Origin: Microvirga terrae
GTDB lineage: Bacteria > Pseudomonadota > Alphaproteobacteria > Rhizobiales > Beijerinckiaceae
Assembly (NCBI RefSeq): GCF_013307435.2
Contig: NZ_CP102846.1
Location: forward strand, 62,001 to 126,000
Direction of reading: 5' to 3'
Length of the DNA: 64,000 bases
A program made the translations under genes and the position numbers. Position 1 is the stretch's first letter. Each line of letters begins with the position of its first letter. Below the pieces are notes generated by a model, which was not told the origin of the DNA, searched no databases, and saw only the letters and a list, made by a program, of their open reading frames with translations. Of this stretch, positions 48,901 to 64,000 are shown one piece after another.

Positions 48901-49626
48901 ATGGCTCGCATCAAAGACCCTCAAGCGAAAAAGCGGTCGCCTGCTCGGCGGTACTCCAGGGCGAAGTCATCCGTGCCCCCGTCTGTTCACTCATACAAAG
49001 TGGTCGGAGATCCCGCACAGGTGCTTCGGGAGATACCCGACGGAGTGCTGGTCGCATTAGTTCCTCCTGACGCAACGACAGAGAAGAAGCTGTTGCGTGT
49101 AGGGTCTGGGCGGATCCAACGGCTTCGAGGGCTCTTGGCAGTGTCGCAGGGCCGTCTCTTTACCAGGGTCGGGTCAGGCGCAACCAAGAAGAGACCCGTT
49201 CTTGATGCTTCTGCATTTGAGCCCAACTCGCGGGCCAAGGCACTCCTCAAAGGTATTCAGATCGCCCAGAACGATCTGAAGGAATCGGGTGGAACCTACG
49301 ACTTGGATCAAGTTCGTGTCCTGATGAACGGCATCTCACGGCAGATGGTGGATCGAAAAGTCCGAGAAGGCAGCCTGCTGGCTGTTCCGGGTCCGAGCAA
49401 CCGGCGAGCCTACCCTACCATACAATTCACCCGCGATGGCACAGTCGTCCCTGGTCTGAAGGCTGTGCAGGAGGCTCTCCCAACAGAGAACCCCTGGGCT
49501 GTGCTGAACTTTCTTGTTCGTCCCGATCCGCGCCTGAACGGACGCAAGCCGATTGATCTCCTCAAAGCTGGCGAGATCGAGTTGGTTGTCGAGGCTGCCC
49601 AGCGCATGGGTCAGCAAGGATCGTGA
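48901..49626 (+). CDS. Xre/MbcA/ParS-type antitoxin with long N-terminus
   Basis: Protein of 241 aa with AAGGAG before the ATG. The C-terminus (NPWAVLNFLVRPDPRLNGRK, then PIDLLKAGEIELVVEAAQ) matches the toxin-binding domain of ParS/MbcA antitoxins. The first 100 residues are basic and unrecognised, and 105-170 contain a helical DNA-binding-like segment. Typical members are about 130-160 aa. It overlaps the RES toxin gene by GTGA, so the pair is co-translated. Antitoxins of this class repress their own promoter. Confidence 0.82.
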   Translation: MARIKDPQAKKRSPARRYSRAKSSVPPSVHSYKVVGDPAQVLREIPDGVLVALVPPDATTEKKLLRVGSGRIQRLRGLLAVSQGRLFTRVGSGATKKRPVLDASAFEPNSRAKALLKGIQIAQNDLKESGGTYDLDQVRVLMNGISRQMVDRKVREGSLLAVPGPSNRRAYPTIQFTRDGTVVPGLKAVQEALPTENPWAVLNFLVRPDPRLNGRKPIDLLKAGEIELVVEAAQRMGQQGS

Positions 49627-50210
49627 CGGCACCATTGCCGCCATCGGATCTTGCTATGCGGGATCCGGTCCTCATCACCCTTGAGGCTGGCGAGATCCTC
49701 CACCGGTTCTTCACGGCAGCATACGATCCAATCCATTTCGATCGCAGCCGCGATGGCCGCCTCAATGCGCCTGATGCGTCGTACGGCGTCCTCTACACGG
49801 CCAAGGACGCGCGTGGCGCTTTTGCTGAGACCTTTCTCCGAGAACCAGGGCGCACTCTCGTTCCGTCCGATCTGCTTGCAAGGAAGGCTTATGTGCGACT
49901 GCGCGTGACTCGTCCACTCGTGCTGATCAAGCTCGGGGGACCTGGTCTGGCCCGATTGGGAGCGACAGCGGAGATTGTGCATGGTGGTCTTCCGTATGAC
50001 GTTCCGCAAGCCTGGTCAGCGGCTCTTCGCAATCATCCCATCCGAGCGAGCGGAGTCGCCTACTACGCCCGTCATGACGACGAGGCCCTTTGCTATGCAA
50101 TCTATGATCATGAACCGTTGGCTATAGAAGAAGAGCGTCGAGATACCAGTTTGGATGAGAACTGGTTCTGGGACCTTGCTGAGCCCTACGGAGTCGGTCT
50201 GTCTCCTTAG
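49623..50210 (+). CDS. RES-domain toxin (NAD+-degrading)
   Basis: Protein of 195 aa from GTG 49623; ATG 49656 is a possible start. It has LHRFFTAAYDPIHFDRSRDG, YGVLYTAKDARGAFAETFLR (catalytic Arg/Tyr/Glu region) and the ASGVAYYARHDDEALCYAIY block. RES toxins break down cellular NAD+ and stop growth. It is paired with the upstream ParS-type antitoxin by a 4-bp overlap. The module is typical of plasmid or genomic-island maintenance. Confidence 0.88.
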   Translation: MTAPLPPSDLAMRDPVLITLEAGEILHRFFTAAYDPIHFDRSRDGRLNAPDASYGVLYTAKDARGAFAETFLREPGRTLVPSDLLARKAYVRLRVTRPLVLIKLGGPGLARLGATAEIVHGGLPYDVPQAWSAALRNHPIRASGVAYYARHDDEALCYAIYDHEPLAIEEERRDTSLDENWFWDLAEPYGVGLSP

Positions 50211-52832: not shown

Positions 52833-53097
52833 CTCAGCCTCCGCCGCTTCCCGTATCTGCTGACACCTGGATATAGGAGAGCCCATCCCGTGATGATAGC
52901 GGCTTCAGGTATGCTTGAAAGCGTGCCTGTTCTGTTTCCCTTCCCGAAGGATGAAACAGACCCGCACCGACGGGTTGGAATTTGGCGAGACCGGTGTTAA
53001 TCCCCTGCCCATCCCTACACCTCTTTTCCGGGCCGAGCGATCAGGACACTGCATCGTCCTTAGCCTGAAAACCTTTTCAGCGATCAGGATTAGCCAG

Positions 53098-54306
53098 ATG
53101 CCCGGCATCGCACGTCAGTTCGAGCCGCAGATCACCCGGACCGGTGGCGCTCCCTCCAGGTACCGCTTCACCGCCCGCTGTTCGGGATGCCACAAGACGG
53201 ACACCTACGAGTCGAGCACGTCTGTCGGTGACGATGTCGTCAAGGGCTACTTCAAGGACCGCGGCTGGCTTCTCGCCCGCGATCGCGCCCATGATCTGTG
53301 TTCGGCTTGTCTGGCTAAACCCCACGGGGCTCAGCCGCCGCGCCAGCGCACCGACGGTCGGCACCACCAGTCGCCAGAGGGCACGAACCATCCCGATCGC
53401 CTGACTCCGGCTGCGGACAAGCGGTCCCGGGACACCGCCGATATCCTGGCGCGCCACCTGGGCAAGCCTGACGCGCTTGCCCAGGAGGTCTTTCGCCCCA
53501 AGCCGGTGCTGGCCCCCCGCCCGTCGGCTGCGGACGCACCTCAGCTGACCGCACCAGTCCCTGCCCCGCCACCCGAGGTGCAACAAGCCCTCGTGGCAAT
53601 GGCCGAGGAGCTGAAAGGCCTTCGCGCTACGATGGACCTCATGGCGGAGCAGGTGGGCCAGCTGGTTTCTCTGGGCACTCAGCAGATCGAGGCCATGGCG
53701 CGCCTGACGCCTCTGGTGGTGCAGTCGGCCGAGGGGATCTCCGGAAGCCTGCGGGCGGTTGCTAACGCGGTGCAACTGATCCCGACCGTTTCTACCCCTG
53801 CCGGGGAGGCCACGAAGCCATCCACCGTAACGGCGGGGGTTGAGGAACCGCCGGCCCTACAGCTCAATCTTCTGCAAGATGTGGACCAGGCGGTTGATCC
53901 GGAAGCAGAGCCTGCACTAATCGCTGCAGAGACAAAGAAGCCATCCAATCAGAGCCGACGCCCCAAGACGACCGCGGCACCAGCGCCTCAGGCGGGCTCT
54001 GGGCCTGTCGTGGTCAAGTCGATCCCCGATGCCAAGCGCTCGGATCGGTTCTACACGAGCATCCGACTGCCACGAGACTTGTGGAACCAAGCTGGCTTCG
54101 GTCCGGAAGATCGTCTCCTGCTCGACTGGAGCGGGAGGGCTCTGACGATCGAACGTGCGACCGAAGGCGGGGTAAAGCCAAAAGCAATCGGGGAGACCTC
54201 GGTGGTGCTGCAGTCGTGGAAGCTGGGCAACCTGAACTTTGATCAGACGAAAGCGACAGAAACTGACGGGGGCCTACGCCTGACAGGAAGACGTCAGCCA
54301 GCCTAA
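53098..54306 (+). CDS. Zinc-ribbon protein with coiled coil and AbrB-like C-terminus
   Basis: Protein of 402 aa from the ATG at 53098 (AGGAT upstream). Residues 20-70 carry two Cys pairs (CSGCHK and CSACLA) typical of a zinc ribbon. The middle has a helical stretch (EVQQALVAMAEELKGLRATM and on to IEAMARLTPL). Near the C-terminus SDRFYTSIRLPRDLWNQAGF then GPEDRLLLDWSGRALTIER looks like an AbrB-type beta-hairpin DNA-binding unit. It lies just before the iteron-like array, so a role in that region is possible but unproven. Confidence 0.6.
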   Translation: MPGIARQFEPQITRTGGAPSRYRFTARCSGCHKTDTYESSTSVGDDVVKGYFKDRGWLLARDRAHDLCSACLAKPHGAQPPRQRTDGRHHQSPEGTNHPDRLTPAADKRSRDTADILARHLGKPDALAQEVFRPKPVLAPRPSAADAPQLTAPVPAPPPEVQQALVAMAEELKGLRATMDLMAEQVGQLVSLGTQQIEAMARLTPLVVQSAEGISGSLRAVANAVQLIPTVSTPAGEATKPSTVTAGVEEPPALQLNLLQDVDQAVDPEAEPALIAAETKKPSNQSRRPKTTAAPAPQAGSGPVVVKSIPDAKRSDRFYTSIRLPRDLWNQAGFGPEDRLLLDWSGRALTIERATEGGVKPKAIGETSVVLQSWKLGNLNFDQTKATETDGGLRLTGRRQPA

Positions 54307-55046
54307 GGCTGCGTCACAGCGTGGCGAGCGCCGTGCAAAGTTATATCGCTGCGCAACAGATCATGGGTAACGTGCGACGGCCGGTCCGCTGCACGGCATT
54401 GCATGACGAGTTTGGATGAAGCCATCCGAGATCTCCCTCACCTGCTCTGCCTCACGTGAACTGACACAACCAGAGCGCCTGCCAGACGCATCTCGCAGGC
54501 CGGTGTTTGCCTGTTTGTAGCATCGACATTCGAGGTTCGTCACGTTCTCGTCCAAGGGCGGTGGCTGCTTGAGGAACAGTCGTTGATCACCAGCCAGCCA
54601 AGCGCCAAGCGCCAGCTTCACGTTGGCTCCGACCCAAGGTGGGCTTGAGGAGCCATGGCAATGGCAGTGAAAATTCTAGTGCAAATATTGATCCGGATCA
54701 CCACTCCTGTTCACCTCTGTGAGGCCAGTCAACGACCACGTTGCAACAGGATCAACCCGGCCTCGAGCGGGAGCGTCCAACCCCGTAGGTGAGGCCCGAA
54801 AAATACGGGACGAGAGGGTCACAGAAGAGGTCGAGATTTGCTTGTTACTATCTGGCAGGCAGCGAACGCAGGGAGCTGCGTTGCGCCGATTTTTTGCGCC
54901 TCATTGTCCGTCCGTCGCTACGGATTGGATCCGATCAGGCGATCGGTGGGGAGCCTTTAATCGCTCCGGTAAGACAAGCTCTCGCCGTGATGGGCAAAGT
55001 CCCAAAGTGCGTCAAATTCGGAGTGCATCCAGCGCTCTGATCGCTG
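54307..55046. other. Non-coding stretch before the iteron array
   Basis: This 740-bp stretch has no supported gene; the frames present are short and lack signals. No repeat was recognised. Confidence 0.5.
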
Positions 55047-55456
55047 CTGCACAAAAACGGAGGTATTGAGCCCCGGGATGGACCTATAGGTGAGAGGATA
55101 AAATTCCTGCATAAAGTTTACAGTATTGAGCCTGGGCTATCCGTGCACAAAAACTGTGGTATTGAGCCCTGATTGCCCTGACATAACGTTGCTGCGTCAA
55201 GGCTACGGCATTGAGCCCGAACACGGTGCACAAAAACTACGGTATTGAGCTATAACTGAAAGGAGATTACGTTGCTGCGTCACATCTACAGTATTGAGCC
55301 CTTAACCCCACTGCACAAACTTTGAGGTATTGAGCCTCCTGCGGCCCGTACGGCTTCCGGCTCCCGACCGCCGCCCCAGATGGGTCCAAAGCCGCTCCTT
55401 GGCCTCCGCATGGGCCTTGCCGAGCCGTTCTGCGGAGGGTTTGCGGTATTGAGCCT
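55047..55456 (+). repeat. Eight iteron-like direct repeats
   Basis: The core (G/A)GTATTGAG occurs at 55062, 55122, 55159, 55207 (as GGCATTGAG), 55241, 55290, 55326 and 55445, nearly always followed by C(C/T). The first part of the unit is GCACAAAAAC in copies 1, 3 and 5 (GCACAAAC in 7, GCATAAAG in 2). In copies 4 and 6 it is replaced by GCTGCGTCA, preceded by ACGTT. Copies lie 34-60 bp apart except the last (119 bp), all in one orientation. Such arrays bind replication initiators or partition proteins. Confidence 0.8.
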
Positions 55457-55660
55457 CGCTGGTTGGAAGCATCCAAGTGTCGCCCGGATGGTCTCCACTG
55501 ATGAAGTCTATCGCGAGTTCGGGCGAGAGAAGTCTCTCAGGGAACGCCCTCTGGCCGAGGTTACTGGCGCCGCAACAGCAATCGCCAGAACCTGAAATGC
55601 GAATATCCAGCGCACCATTTTTTCTGTGGCTCAGCGAGCGAATCCACAGTTTCCGAGTGA

Positions 55661-55681
55661 GAAAATTGTACGCCAATTTTC
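55661..55681. repeat. Perfect inverted repeat GAAAATTG-TACGC-CAATTTTC
   Basis: Two perfect 8-bp arms flank a 5-bp spacer, in a locally AT-rich part about 200 bp after the last iteron-like copy. It could be an operator or part of an origin. Confidence 0.65.
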
Positions 55682-56502
55682 TGCAGCATCTCGGCCCCTC
55701 AGGCGCTACGCTGCGCAGTACAGCTCCGGTGGCCCCACCCGCGTCACGATTATTAACCGGTCTGCGCGAGCCCGGCGCTTGTCGCCCGGACACCCCAGCG
55801 ATGCAGACCATCATGCACCAGGCTCCTCTTCATTGTCGTTCTTTTCCATAGCTTTCCGAGCTAGATCGCAAATACGTGCACCGCTGCTTTCTCATTGGTC
55901 AGCCACTGACGTTATCGCGATGTGAGAATATCTGGTTACCTATCGTTTCCAGTCCCCTCGACGCTCCTGTAAAGTCTAACCTAGGCCACCCACTGAGACG
56001 CAACCCGCGGATCAAGTGCGAACATACCTGAGCCCGCGAGTGACAGCAGTTCCCCGCAGGATCAGATCAAGACCGGCAAGCGCAGCTCAGCCAGTCTCAT
56101 TGGGGCCTCGGATTTCGGGCCCATAAATGTGAATCCATAGGGCCGAAAAATCCGCAGTTCAGCGGGGCCGTCGGTTGCGGCAGGGAGCGTCCTCAACCAT
56201 GTGCGAATTTCCGGGAGTGCCTTTTCTCACCAAGCCCTGGGACTGGGATTGGGGAACTGGCGAAAGCGGCAAAGCAATCGGATCAATGACCACGGAGCGA
56301 ATGAGAACACAGCGGCACCATTTTTAGCATAATCTACATTCATAGGACTTGGGCCCCATCGACCTTGTGCGAATTTTGGTTGCACTGTGTTCCCACATTC
56401 TGAGGCGCGGGAGGCGTCGGAAATCGGGCGCGAATAAACTCTGGCGTTTATTCTCACCCCTGATCTCGGCCGCTCGCGGTCTGCACAATCCACATGCAAA
56501 AA
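55682..56502. other. Non-coding stretch between repeat region and promoter
   Basis: About 820 bp without a supported gene. TGTGCGAATTT occurs twice, at 56200-56210 and 56367-56377, 167 bp apart. No other structure was recognised. Confidence 0.5.
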
Positions 56503-56532
56503 TTGACGCGGAATTTGCCGGTACGGTATAAT
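56503..56532 (+). promoter_or_regulatory. Sigma-70-type promoter
   Basis: TTGACG (56503-56508) and a perfect TATAAT (56527-56532) are separated by 18 bp. The predicted start is near 56539, 65 bp upstream of the ATG of the AT-hook-like gene. This is the clearest housekeeping-type promoter seen in the window. Confidence 0.75.
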
Positions 56533-56552
56533 ATGAGGGACTAAAATGTCAC

Positions 56553-56585
56553 GTGCCCACAGGGCACCTTTGCTCCGCAGGAGCA
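56553..56585 (+). promoter_or_regulatory. Two tandem triloop hairpins in the 5' leader
   Basis: GTGCCC-ACA-GGGCAC (56553-56567) and TGCTCC-GCA-GGAGCA (56571-56585) are perfect 6-bp stems with three-base loops, 3 bp apart, just before the ribosome-binding site. As DNA they could also be operator palindromes. They lie between the promoter and the start codon. Confidence 0.65.
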
Positions 56586-56603
56586 TAAATCGGGTGGGGG
56601 CTG

Positions 56604-57953
56604 ATGGTAAAGTATATATGGGGTAAGGAGCGTCCCACGGACCGACGGCATCGTTTTGAGACGACGGTTATCAAGAACTGCAAGGCCGCCATCGAGGAGA
56701 TCGAGCGCAGCTATCAGGCGGCAATCGACAAAGCGAAGGAAGAACTGCGGCGGGCCGAGTTGGAGATCAAGAGGATCGACTACCTGACCCCTCACGGCCG
56801 CTACATCCGCAGCCGTGAGGCGGATCTGGCTGCCATGGGCCTTGCCAACACATTCGAGGAAGCTCCCGTCAAACGTGGTCGGGGCCGGCCGCGCAAACAC
56901 CCCCCAGGCCAGCGCGCCCCCCGTCGGTCTCGGGCGAAGGTGAGGCTGGCAGCACAGGGGCAGCCACCCGCGCGCGCTTCTGGTGGGCGCAAGGCAAGCC
57001 GCGCCTCTTCGCGCAAGACGTCCGGCACGGTTTCTCCCGTGACGGCCGCGCCGGCGCGTGTGCCAACTCCGGCTCCTAAGGCTGCGCCGAAGGTTGCGGC
57101 CGCTTTGCTGGAGTCGACCCTGGCCGGTGGCCTTGGCCAGGACACCATTCAGATTGAGGCGCAGGAGACGGCGTTCGAAATCAAGCCGATCGAGACCCGG
57201 ACGGTGGAAATCACCGTGGTCGAGAACGATCCTGAGTATGAGGCGGAGTTGGCCGAGCAGGCTGCGCTCGTGAAGGCACGTTTAGACGCCGAGAACGAGC
57301 CGGGCGAGGAAGTTCCGCATCCGAGCGTCCGCCGGACGAAGTTCACCCGTCGCTATGACTTTTCAGATGCCCAGGACGCATCGAAGGTTGATCCTGCCGT
57401 CCTTACGCTTTTCCCGCATTTTGGTTTTCCCACCATTCATCGGGGTGGTCCGATGTCGGAGGACGACTTGAAGCGCTGGCTTTTCGCTACCCTGTATAAG
57501 GAGAAGCGAAATGATGCGATCAGGGAAGATCGCTTTCAGGATGATCTCCGGATCTACAGAGGCTTGGAAGGTTTCTACAACGCGGTTGAGGTCATCATCG
57601 AAGGCGATATCCAGCGCGAGCGCGATCGGATCGCGATCTGGCACGTGATCGATACCCGGGTCGCCAATGCGGAGCAATACAGCGAACGTGCGGCCAAGGG
57701 TGAGATCAGCGACGACTTGGCTCGGATGTGGGTGGCTCATCTCGACTATCTTGCCTTGGGTAACCTCGAAGACAGCGAGCATCTCGTTTGGCGTCAGATC
57801 GTCGATGCGATGGAATGGCCTGAGGGCTTCTCGCGGATTGATCTGGCCCGGTGGGCTGGTCAAGATCCCGACGTGGTTCCTAATGTCCGGTCTTGGGCCG
57901 GTCAGCCGAAACACTTCCCTGAGCATCTGAGGGATGTTCCGTTCCCTCCATAG
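56604..57953 (+). CDS. Hypothetical protein with AT-hook-like motif
   Basis: Protein of 449 aa. An N-terminal coiled coil (residues 20-58, IEEIERSYQAAIDKAKEELR) precedes GRGRPRKHPPGQ at about 92-103, an AT-hook-like minor-groove motif within a 70-residue basic, Ala/Pro-rich stretch. The C-terminal 200 residues are acidic and globular (FPHFGFPTIHRGGPMSEDDL, IWHVIDTRVANAEQYSERAA) but unrecognised. It is preceded by a strong promoter and two hairpins and followed by a strong terminator, so it is a single-gene unit. A DNA-binding role linked to the adjacent repeat region is an inference. Confidence 0.7.
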   Translation: MVKYIWGKERPTDRRHRFETTVIKNCKAAIEEIERSYQAAIDKAKEELRRAELEIKRIDYLTPHGRYIRSREADLAAMGLANTFEEAPVKRGRGRPRKHPPGQRAPRRSRAKVRLAAQGQPPARASGGRKASRASSRKTSGTVSPVTAAPARVPTPAPKAAPKVAAALLESTLAGGLGQDTIQIEAQETAFEIKPIETRTVEITVVENDPEYEAELAEQAALVKARLDAENEPGEEVPHPSVRRTKFTRRYDFSDAQDASKVDPAVLTLFPHFGFPTIHRGGPMSEDDLKRWLFATLYKEKRNDAIREDRFQDDLRIYRGLEGFYNAVEVIIEGDIQRERDRIAIWHVIDTRVANAEQYSERAAKGEISDDLARMWVAHLDYLALGNLEDSEHLVWRQIVDAMEWPEGFSRIDLARWAGQDPDVVPNVRSWAGQPKHFPEHLRDVPFPP

Positions 57954-63211: not shown

Positions 63212-64000
63212 CTATGCCATTCGTCGCCTCCTCATGGCGAGGATCTCGACGGCGAGGTCGATCTTGCCGGTTTTCACCATGCGGGCGAGCGCGCGGAAGT
63301 AGCCGCCCGGGTTCTTGATCCGGCTCTCGCCGCCGTTTTTGGCCACATCGTCCTCGTAGAGCTGCAGGGTGTAGATCACGGAGATCGCCGACCTGACGGT
63401 GCCGATCTCCTCCACGGCCTCGGCCCAGGCGCTCTCATGTGCCCCGAGGGAAGCCCGCAGGTAGCGGCCAGCCGAGACGATGTCGGCCAGATCCCGCACC
63501 GGCTGGCCGTAGTCGCTTAAGGTCGGGCAGGCCTCAAGGATCAATTCCGGTGATAGGTGCTCTGACGGTTGTTCGGTTGAACGAACCGCTTCAGCTTTCT
63601 TCGGAAAGCCTTTGTTACAAGCTTTGCTAGGAGATCCGTTGTTGTTATTAGAGTGACGGACTCCGAGTCCGGCATTGCCCGCTTCATAGAAGGCATCCTC
63701 AACCTGGGTTCTCAACAGCTGCCAGGCCTCCATTAGATCGGCCGGCAACGTCACCTTCGATCGGGCTGGCGTGCGGGCCTGCAGGGCCTTCAGCTCCCCT
63801 TCGAACGCGCTGCGGTCGAGCTCGGGGAAGTGCTCGGCCAAGGCCGCCAAGGCTTCTTCCGCTGCCCGCCGGCAGATCGTGACCTCATCGAACGCCCGCT
63901 TCTGCACCACTCTGAGCTGCTTCTGCTCGATGAGCATCGCCGCCCAGTCGCCTCTTCTGGCGTAGACCGGGGTGAGATCGAACCCAAAGGCATCGACCAC
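63212..64000 (-). CDS. repC: Replication initiator RepC (partial, N-terminus outside window)
   Basis: The last 262 residues are visible. WAAMLIEQKQLRVVQKRAFD, ICRRAAEEALAALAEHFPEL, EACPTLSDYGQPVRDLADIV and the C-terminal NPGGYFRALARMVKTGKIDLA are characteristic of repABC RepC. In repABC plasmids RepC is essential for replication and the origin lies inside its gene; an AT-rich run coding HSNNNNG (about 63635-63658) may mark it. repA and repB should follow beyond the right edge. The visible part has no stop or frameshift. Confidence 0.9.
   Translation of the reverse strand: MVDAFGFDLTPVYARRGDWAAMLIEQKQLRVVQKRAFDEVTICRRAAEEALAALAEHFPELDRSAFEGELKALQARTPARSKVTLPADLMEAWQLLRTQVEDAFYEAGNAGLGVRHSNNNNGSPSKACNKGFPKKAEAVRSTEQPSEHLSPELILEACPTLSDYGQPVRDLADIVSAGRYLRASLGAHESAWAEAVEEIGTVRSAISVIYTLQLYEDDVAKNGGESRIKNPGGYFRALARMVKTGKIDLAVEILAMRRRRMA

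Follow-up and report, generated by a model that had tools for sequence, protein, structure and literature searches.

An array of eight putative oriT-derived half-sites on a repC-bearing replicon of Microvirga terrae

Background

Iterons of theta plasmids are short direct repeats, co-oriented and set at short intervals. In conjugation, the usual order of transfer is one in which the relaxase and type IV secretion system (T4SS) genes enter the recipient last. The RSF1010 origin of transfer (oriT) has its substrate printed as CAGTTTCTCGAAGAGAAACCGGTAAGTGCG/CCCTCCC in the accessible sections of PMC4814116, which also describe a model in which the relaxase MobA makes contact only with bases at the hairpin foot. 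In the staphylococcal pWBG749 system, relaxase-less plasmids carry variants of the oriT of conjugative plasmids, and these mimics, several per plasmid and often with different inverted-repeat arms, are mobilised in trans (accessible parts of PMC4652767 and PMC8136818). According to the available portion of O'Brien 2015 (PMC4652767), no same-strand pairs occur on two-oriT plasmids, relaxase-dependent deletion between same-strand oriT sites has been shown, and relaxases can join oriT copies.

The locus described here is an array of eight co-oriented 26-bp units (55047-55455) on a 556-kb repC-bearing replicon of Microvirga terrae. The window, that is, the whole stretch of 64,000 nucleotides analysed, corresponds to G000:C2:62001-126000, G000 being the organism's own genome. 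As with the staphylococcal mimics, several arm variants are present on a replicon for which no MobA/MobL relaxase was found, the match here being to the half-site only; however, the mimics are whole oriTs of proven mobilisation, numbering two or three on plasmids that have several, whereas the window contains compact co-oriented half-sites, in the Alphaproteobacteria, known from sequence alone. Unlike the iterons of theta plasmids, the array has no adjacent Rep gene that could be found, and single copies of its unit are present as hairpins at relaxase loci. Nothing on tandem oriT arrays was found in the accessible part of PMC7755788, which deals with multiple oriTs, and a literature search, with most subscription journals outside its reach, returned no description of such half-site arrays.

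Structure of the array and of its unit

The features of the locus are as follows (geneA and geneB are the genes on either side of the array; units are numbered along the consensus strand):

52915..54306, + strand: geneA, 463 aa, no Pfam or NCBIfam match
55047..55455, - strand (consensus strand; the predicted transferred strand is +): whole array, eight co-oriented 26-bp units
55430..55455, - strand: unit 1, arm AACCCTCCG
55311..55336, - strand: unit 2, arm AAGTTTGTG
55275..55300, - strand: unit 3, arm GATGTGACG, one mismatch from the relaxase-linked arm of G014:C22
55226..55251, - strand: unit 4, arm GTTTTTGTG, the same as at relaxase-linked hairpins in G022, G007 and G036
55192..55217, - strand: unit 5, arm GCCTTGACG
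55143..55168, - strand: unit 6, arm GTTTTTGTG
55107..55132, - strand: unit 7, arm AACTTTATG, two mismatches from the relaxase-linked arm of G030:C13
55047..55072, - strand: unit 8, arm GTTTTTGTG
56604..57953, + strand: geneB, 449 aa, with an N-terminal YxWGxERP and an RGRPRK motif (AT-hook-like, below the Pfam cut-off)
63842..64000, - strand: part of a RepC (PF03428) match that runs past the window (G000:C2:125842-126342)

The eight co-oriented units reported by the first-pass annotation were confirmed. Indeed, the core GGTATTGAGCC, or one change from it, is present in all eight (+ strand, 55062-55455), and the 11-mer core with at most one mismatch has nine matches in the 64-kb window, eight of them inside the array, against 0.64 expected; the largest count among 100 shuffles was 3. 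Successive units start 119, 36, 49, 34, 49, 36 and 60 bp apart. On the - strand the unit reads GGCTCAATAC(C/T), about 12 less conserved bases, then GCA. In matrix form it consists of GGCTCAATACC, G/T/A, C/T, A, variable positions and GCA, with ACT in two window units. The true unit, at 26 bp, is thus longer than the core first described, which is itself present. Of the two alternating 5' halves described at the same time, the alternation holds for the middle units; the first, second and eighth units (+ strand) do not fit it, and one window unit has GGCATTGAGCC.

Nine loci, the window among them, supplied the 49 pattern matches on which the unit matrix is based; all 49 have CC at positions 10-11, so that the window units with ACT were omitted from it, and one of the 49 scored 1.0 and is not a unit. 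Scanning with this matrix revealed no further unit elsewhere in the window. The eight window units score at least 28.5, whereas the two other exact RGTATTGAGCC 11-mers of the own genome score at most 16 and are therefore not units; a scattered mobile repeat was rejected as an explanation on this account. Unit 1 is the start of a block that is 82-89% conserved in G047, G027 and G011, and a local stem, CCTCCGCA/TGCGGAGG, is predicted by folding in its region.

The non-coding region of about 2.3 kb noted earlier corresponds to the geneA-geneB gap of 2,297 bp (54307-56603), which is without a convincing gene. A coding explanation was rejected: the 170-aa ORF that overlaps the array (55302-55814, - strand) looks spurious by eye, since the conserved block has a stop or indels in relatives. 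An array of structured RNA was likewise rejected, as the Rfam scan found no family at the gathering threshold in the window; one match (E 0.13), far under the gathering score, is sited outside the array.

Relatives of the array and neighbouring genes

DNA of the array region matched 8 of 101 genomes, own genome included, and relatives were gathered through their protein neighbours (40 stretches, then 15 more). A pattern of the unit in which position 4 may be C or T was matched 56 times, in 15 of the 48 Microvirga genomes scanned, against no match for the reversed control. Fifteen array loci with 109 listed units were examined, namely the window and fourteen others of 3-13 units, and scans of both strands placed the units of each array on one strand. 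The interval varies by lineage: 48 bp in L083 and L180, 57-58 bp in L088 and L182, and 66 bp in L179. Cores are conserved above spacers in six of seven array pairs, the exception being L088/L182 (core 0.81 against spacer 0.89). In L088 and L182 a palindrome, CGTGACTCACG, lies between many units, and GTTACTAAC was observed at a similar place in L083 and L179; these sequences could possibly be the site of a second, dimeric protein. Two replicons of M. ossetica carry 6 and 5 dispersed sites, one on each with 9 of 11 positions paired; no PF03389 match was found in that genome.

GeneA has matches in 31 of the 150 genomes searched, all in Microvirga and several copies in many, and in several replicons it is linked to repC and points toward it. 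RepC matches occur on many geneA contigs, often 10-30 kb from geneA and much farther in G036 and G047:C5. In the window, the RepC match lies about 8.4 kb from the array, in agreement with the first-pass annotation (about 8 kb), and its statement that no Rep gene adjoins the array also stood, since no Rep domain came up when geneA, geneB and a number of further ORFs around the array were scanned against Pfam. GeneB, with matches in 14 of 101 genomes, was rightly taken for a novel protein: its family has no Pfam or NCBIfam match and recurs beside such arrays. Indeed, geneB homologues adjoin eight arrays, window included, and are also found near the relaxase-linked hairpins of G022 and G036. The order geneA-array-geneB, in the same orientation, is found in eight loci (window, L076, L022, L081, L085, L086, L090 and L091). 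A ParA query from M. ossetica matched near the arrays of L022, L083, L085 and L086 only. Another protein family (L088_370), with no assigned function, was observed inside or beside several arrays (L088:11333-12445, L178:1909-2820 and L180:4660-5499; matches of 27-32%), and a similar-looking ORF is present at L083:982-1791. Furthermore, a RES-domain gene lies behind a 241-aa ORF (window 48901-50210), likely forming a toxin-antitoxin pair, and RES/Xre-like matches are present near geneA in several relatives.

Outside the genus, a scan of one genome per species returned 50 stretches, 21 of them titled Microvirga, and single matches in distant phyla are estimated to be about as many as chance would give. 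One Bosea MAG has two contigs with three units each at about 34-38 bp. By eye, a single hairpin-like site was seen in Boseaceae BT-24-1 and in Camelimonas fluminis, and two in tandem with different arms in C. lactis; the loci noted are L256 and L270 for Bosea and L243 and L264 for Camelimonas. The units neighbour Toprim/DnaB-type and winged-helix genes in Bosea and resolvase-like genes in Camelimonas; a geneB-like fragment lies near the Boseaceae site. Relaxase queries found no match in these Bosea/Camelimonas stretches of 4.6-8 kb.

The first-pass view that the eight units are bound by a protein, as an array on a replicon of repABC type, is reasonable. One form of it would be an iteron or partition array, bound by geneA, geneB or another replicon protein for replication, copy control, incompatibility or segregation, from which relaxase modules later borrowed the unit. 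The intervals recurrent per lineage (34-36 and 48-49, 48, 57-58 and 66 bp), the place between geneA and geneB conserved in eight loci, window included, the sharing of a replicon by geneA and repC in several genomes, and the Toprim/DnaB genes that adjoin the Bosea units all agree with such a role; however, the replicon already has repC, and geneA and geneB are without a Rep or ParB-like match in Pfam or NCBIfam. We regard this explanation as unlikely, also in view of the hairpins described below.

Another form would be an operator array, through which an accessory DNA-binding protein, for example of the geneB family, regulates nearby genes with no role in transfer. It could account for the geneB homologues at eight arrays and near the G022 and G036 hairpins, for the AT-hook-like motif of geneB, and for the YxWGxERP start shared by proteins at C-type hairpins; this last resemblance was seen by eye, and BLAST did not join these proteins to geneB. 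But the arrays of L083, L178 and L180 have a different protein family at that place, and the array lies about 1.1 kb from the start of geneB, so that a purely regulatory role appears quite improbable. The geneB product is a candidate for an accessory factor of the relaxosome.

Hairpin form of the unit and covariation

In many loci the unit is followed by the reverse complement of its variable part, so forming a hairpin; on the opposite strand these sites read arm, loop, arm, then (A/C/G)GGTATTG(A/G)GCC in most cases. In 19 hairpins of relatives (13 relaxase-linked, five single ones with no relaxase in the stretch read, and one array leader), 9-11 of 11 positions are paired; pairing between the two arms of one hairpin averages 10.37 of 11 positions, but falls to 7.20 when arms are exchanged among loci. 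The observed sum was not reached in any of 10,000 permutations, nor was it with only the 13 distinct arms. The arms thus covary, and the variable part is therefore the stem of a structure and not a free spacer. This set left out L079 and L111 (weak matches), L179 (an array unit) and L088 (a near-copy of L182), while three entries, L203, L204 and L200 (L200 being site L077), were added or renamed; 21 sites had been folded earlier. Covariation was counted by script because MAFFT alignment A2 misplaces the second arm of the T-type rows.

The window units pair at 6-8 of 11 positions, with a mean of 7.1 against 6.3 for swapped arms (145 of 10,000 permutations), and therefore have at most a weak partner arm; none reaches nine of 11 paired positions, the lowest value among the 19 hairpins, and the inverted repeat expected of a MOBQ-type oriT was not found in them. 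Such pairing is rare in compact arrays generally, with no unit at 9/11 or above in 11 of 13 loci and one and two units in L088 and L182, respectively. The nine M. ossetica sites tested pair at 8.1 positions against 6.9 swapped (24 of 10,000 permutations). The mean AT fraction 3' of the core is 0.64 at the 13 relaxase-linked sites and 0.75 at the 11 dispersed M. ossetica sites, against 0.43 for the window units (whole window 0.39) and 0.22-0.46 for the means of 13 compact array loci. For the window's own class this contrast is soft, since values of 0.47-0.73 were obtained for the six relaxase-linked sites of T type and values of 0.27-0.67 for individual window units.

These features might also be expected of decaying relics, left by past oriT insertions or relaxase-mediated recombination and with no present function: the half-sites have no full second arm, the compact arrays have no AT-rich flank, and relaxases are able to join oriT copies (available part of PMC4652767). 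Yet cores are conserved above spacers in six of seven pairs, the spacing recurs, and the units are co-oriented within each array, and we hold this explanation to be very unlikely. The hairpins also brought integron-like attC sites into consideration as a candidate.

Two hairpin classes, C and T, were distinguished. C-type sites share, at some distance along, a TATCCTGCCCC that is invariant (12 of 12 rows), whereas T-type sites are without it. TATCCTGCCCC resembles the RP4 nic, given as TATCCTG/CCCGG in the accessible sections of PMC4814116; if it is the nic, the array units contain none. About 300 bp beside the C-type hairpins (L126:2020-2330 and relatives) are highly conserved, hairpin-rich and apparently non-coding, and would form the leading side if the sites are oriTs. 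This region could be a single-strand promoter of the entry stage or a nic region; no structured RNA is claimed there, since both partners have changed in only 3 of the 79 predicted pairs.

Link with relaxase and type IV secretion genes

A MobA/MobL relaxase gene adjoins several of the hairpins. A profile of ten relaxases matched 17 of 48 genomes at E<=1e-10 (21 listed places, 16 of them at E<=1e-140), and it also matches solved MOBQ-type enzymes, namely 4ht4 (nicking enzyme, 8.3e-10) and 2ns6 (mobilization protein A, 1.1e-8). A hairpin lies upstream, on the same strand, of 13 of the 16 strong matches (E<=1e-140), at about 0.3-9.5 kb; four of these hairpins are 4-9.5 kb away (G020:C4, G011, G021 and G009) and one is degenerate (G036:C2). 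No hairpin was seen at the other three, two of which are near contig ends (G003:C264 and G032:C435) and one of which is divergent (G020:C3). Conversely, no relaxase was found in the stretch read around the five single hairpins (L114, L092, L187, L189 and L186). The C-type element (GGCCCAAT) has a strong match in 11 of 48 genomes; 13 matched, and G031 and G042 were discounted for their 28-36-bp matches outside the element. The hairpin class (GGGCC or GAGCC) tracks the relaxase tree, in which the seven C and six T rows are split with 100/100 support and the three relaxases for which no hairpin was seen are rows with neither label.

In Microvirga sp. VF16, the hairpin is followed by genes for the relaxase, a DnaB-like helicase, VirB2, VirB3, VirB8, VirB9, VirB10 and a T4SS-family ATPase. 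Its plasmid pMVF16-3 (L279, NZ_CP069357.1 652164-682593) has annotated MobA/MobL and T4SS genes and is typed as non-mobilizable in PLSDB, where relaxases of this group seem to be overlooked. In G011, G020 and G021, VirB4 is matched on the strand of the relaxase gene, about 4 kb past it. VirB4 (PF03135) was matched in 7 of 17 genomes searched and PF03389 in 8 of 12. In the own genome no match was found to PF03135, to PF03389 or to the relaxase profile, the relaxase search covering the MobA/MobL family only.

The single copies upstream of relaxases need no iteration, and covarying hairpin arms are unneeded for double-stranded iterons; both observations argue against the iteron or partition reading. 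The second origin proposed by the first-pass annotation is disfavoured in the same way: the units are shared with hairpins upstream of relaxases, where a single copy suffices, and the search beside the array turned up no Rep gene.

The comparison with RSF1010/R1162 (MOBQ oriT; relaxase MobA, PDB 2ns6) points to transfer instead. Indeed, (i) both have an inverted repeat directly 5' of a CGGTA...-type core, (ii) the order [inverted-repeat arm]-GGTATTGAGCC on the predicted transferred strand is RSF1010-like, and (iii) the relaxases of RSF1010/R1162 and NES (4ht4) are of the MobA/MobL family, as in the hairpin-linked relatives. The window differs in that it contains eight half-sites, with no full second arm, no relaxase and at most a putative nic, and in its core, which is GGTATTGAGCC here and GGTAAGTGCG/CCCT there.

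Four of the six relaxase-linked T-type sites keep the core of the window, and those of G030 and G036 have an altered one. The 13 relaxase-linked hairpins have nine distinct arms among them. Of the distinct array arms, 64 in all, 19 differ from one of these nine at no more than one position, where 9.1 would be expected on the assumption of independent columns; 2 of 5,000 simulations reached this number. The unit positions behind the arms were listed by hand. Among the eight window units there are six different arms: GTTTTTGTG, carried by three units, is also the arm at three relaxase-linked hairpins, a fourth unit is one mismatch from a relaxase-linked arm, and the other four are 2-3 mismatches from every relaxase-linked arm. 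An array and a MobA/MobL relaxase share a genome in six cases; array and relaxase are both of class C in G045 and G035, whereas in G009, G011, G028 and G021 the array is of class T and the relaxase of class C, and this mismatch in four of the six weakens the case for a resident relaxase as user of the array. The arrays of G000, G006, G008, G027 and G047 are in genomes without this relaxase family.

Proposed function

Because the unit takes a hairpin form upstream of relaxases and has an RSF1010-like order of parts, the array is best explained as oriT-derived recognition half-sites of a MOBQ-like relaxase system present in Microvirga and its relatives. That the units are relaxosome-recognition half-sites is probable, and that the array as a whole has such an origin together with a role in capture or titration we consider rather likely. 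Each unit, on the + strand, would comprise the core-proximal arm of the inverted repeat followed by the core GGTATTGAGCC. Relaxosome proteins of visiting or co-resident elements may bind the units, whether a relaxase or an accessory factor such as, perhaps, the product of geneB, and the several arm variants could widen the range of systems recognised. Binding would lead to capture, with mobilisation in trans, or else to the titration of a foreign relaxosome. If the sites act as oriT, geneB would be the first gene to enter the recipient, and the relaxase and T4SS genes would come at the end.

The capture reading finds support in the staphylococcal relaxase-less plasmids, which are mobilised in trans, but is put forward tentatively, its standing having been lowered after a recount of the relaxase classes that share genomes with arrays. 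Titration or exclusion is a somewhat doubtful proposal in its own right. The lack of same-strand pairs on two-oriT plasmids and the deletion between same-strand sites (accessible part of PMC4652767) argue for binding without nicking at compact co-oriented arrays, and a decoy would therefore be nearly as fitting as a dock. Working oriTs on one strand would be expected to delete one another, and the co-orientation of the units in every array thus counts against the oriT-derived reading. A more specific possibility, which we advance with reserve, is a polyvalent relaxosome-capture array, i.e. a tandem library of half-oriTs with different arms, kept by large relaxase-less replicons, at which proteins of several incompatible conjugative systems could dock, as a broad-spectrum port for mobilisation or as a decoy; if half-sites cannot complete transfer, the array would be a decoy that blocks resident or incoming relaxases.

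Significance

An array of this kind, without a transfer enzyme of its own, would mean that other plasmids may move the replicon or be interfered with by it. If the proposed explanation is true, the hairpins would provide a candidate transfer origin for a conjugation system missed by plasmid typing (VF16 pMVF16-3), half-site arrays of mixed specificity would be a new form of relaxase-in-trans biology, and a few strains and oligonucleotides would be enough for direct tests of plasmid transfer and interference in Microvirga.
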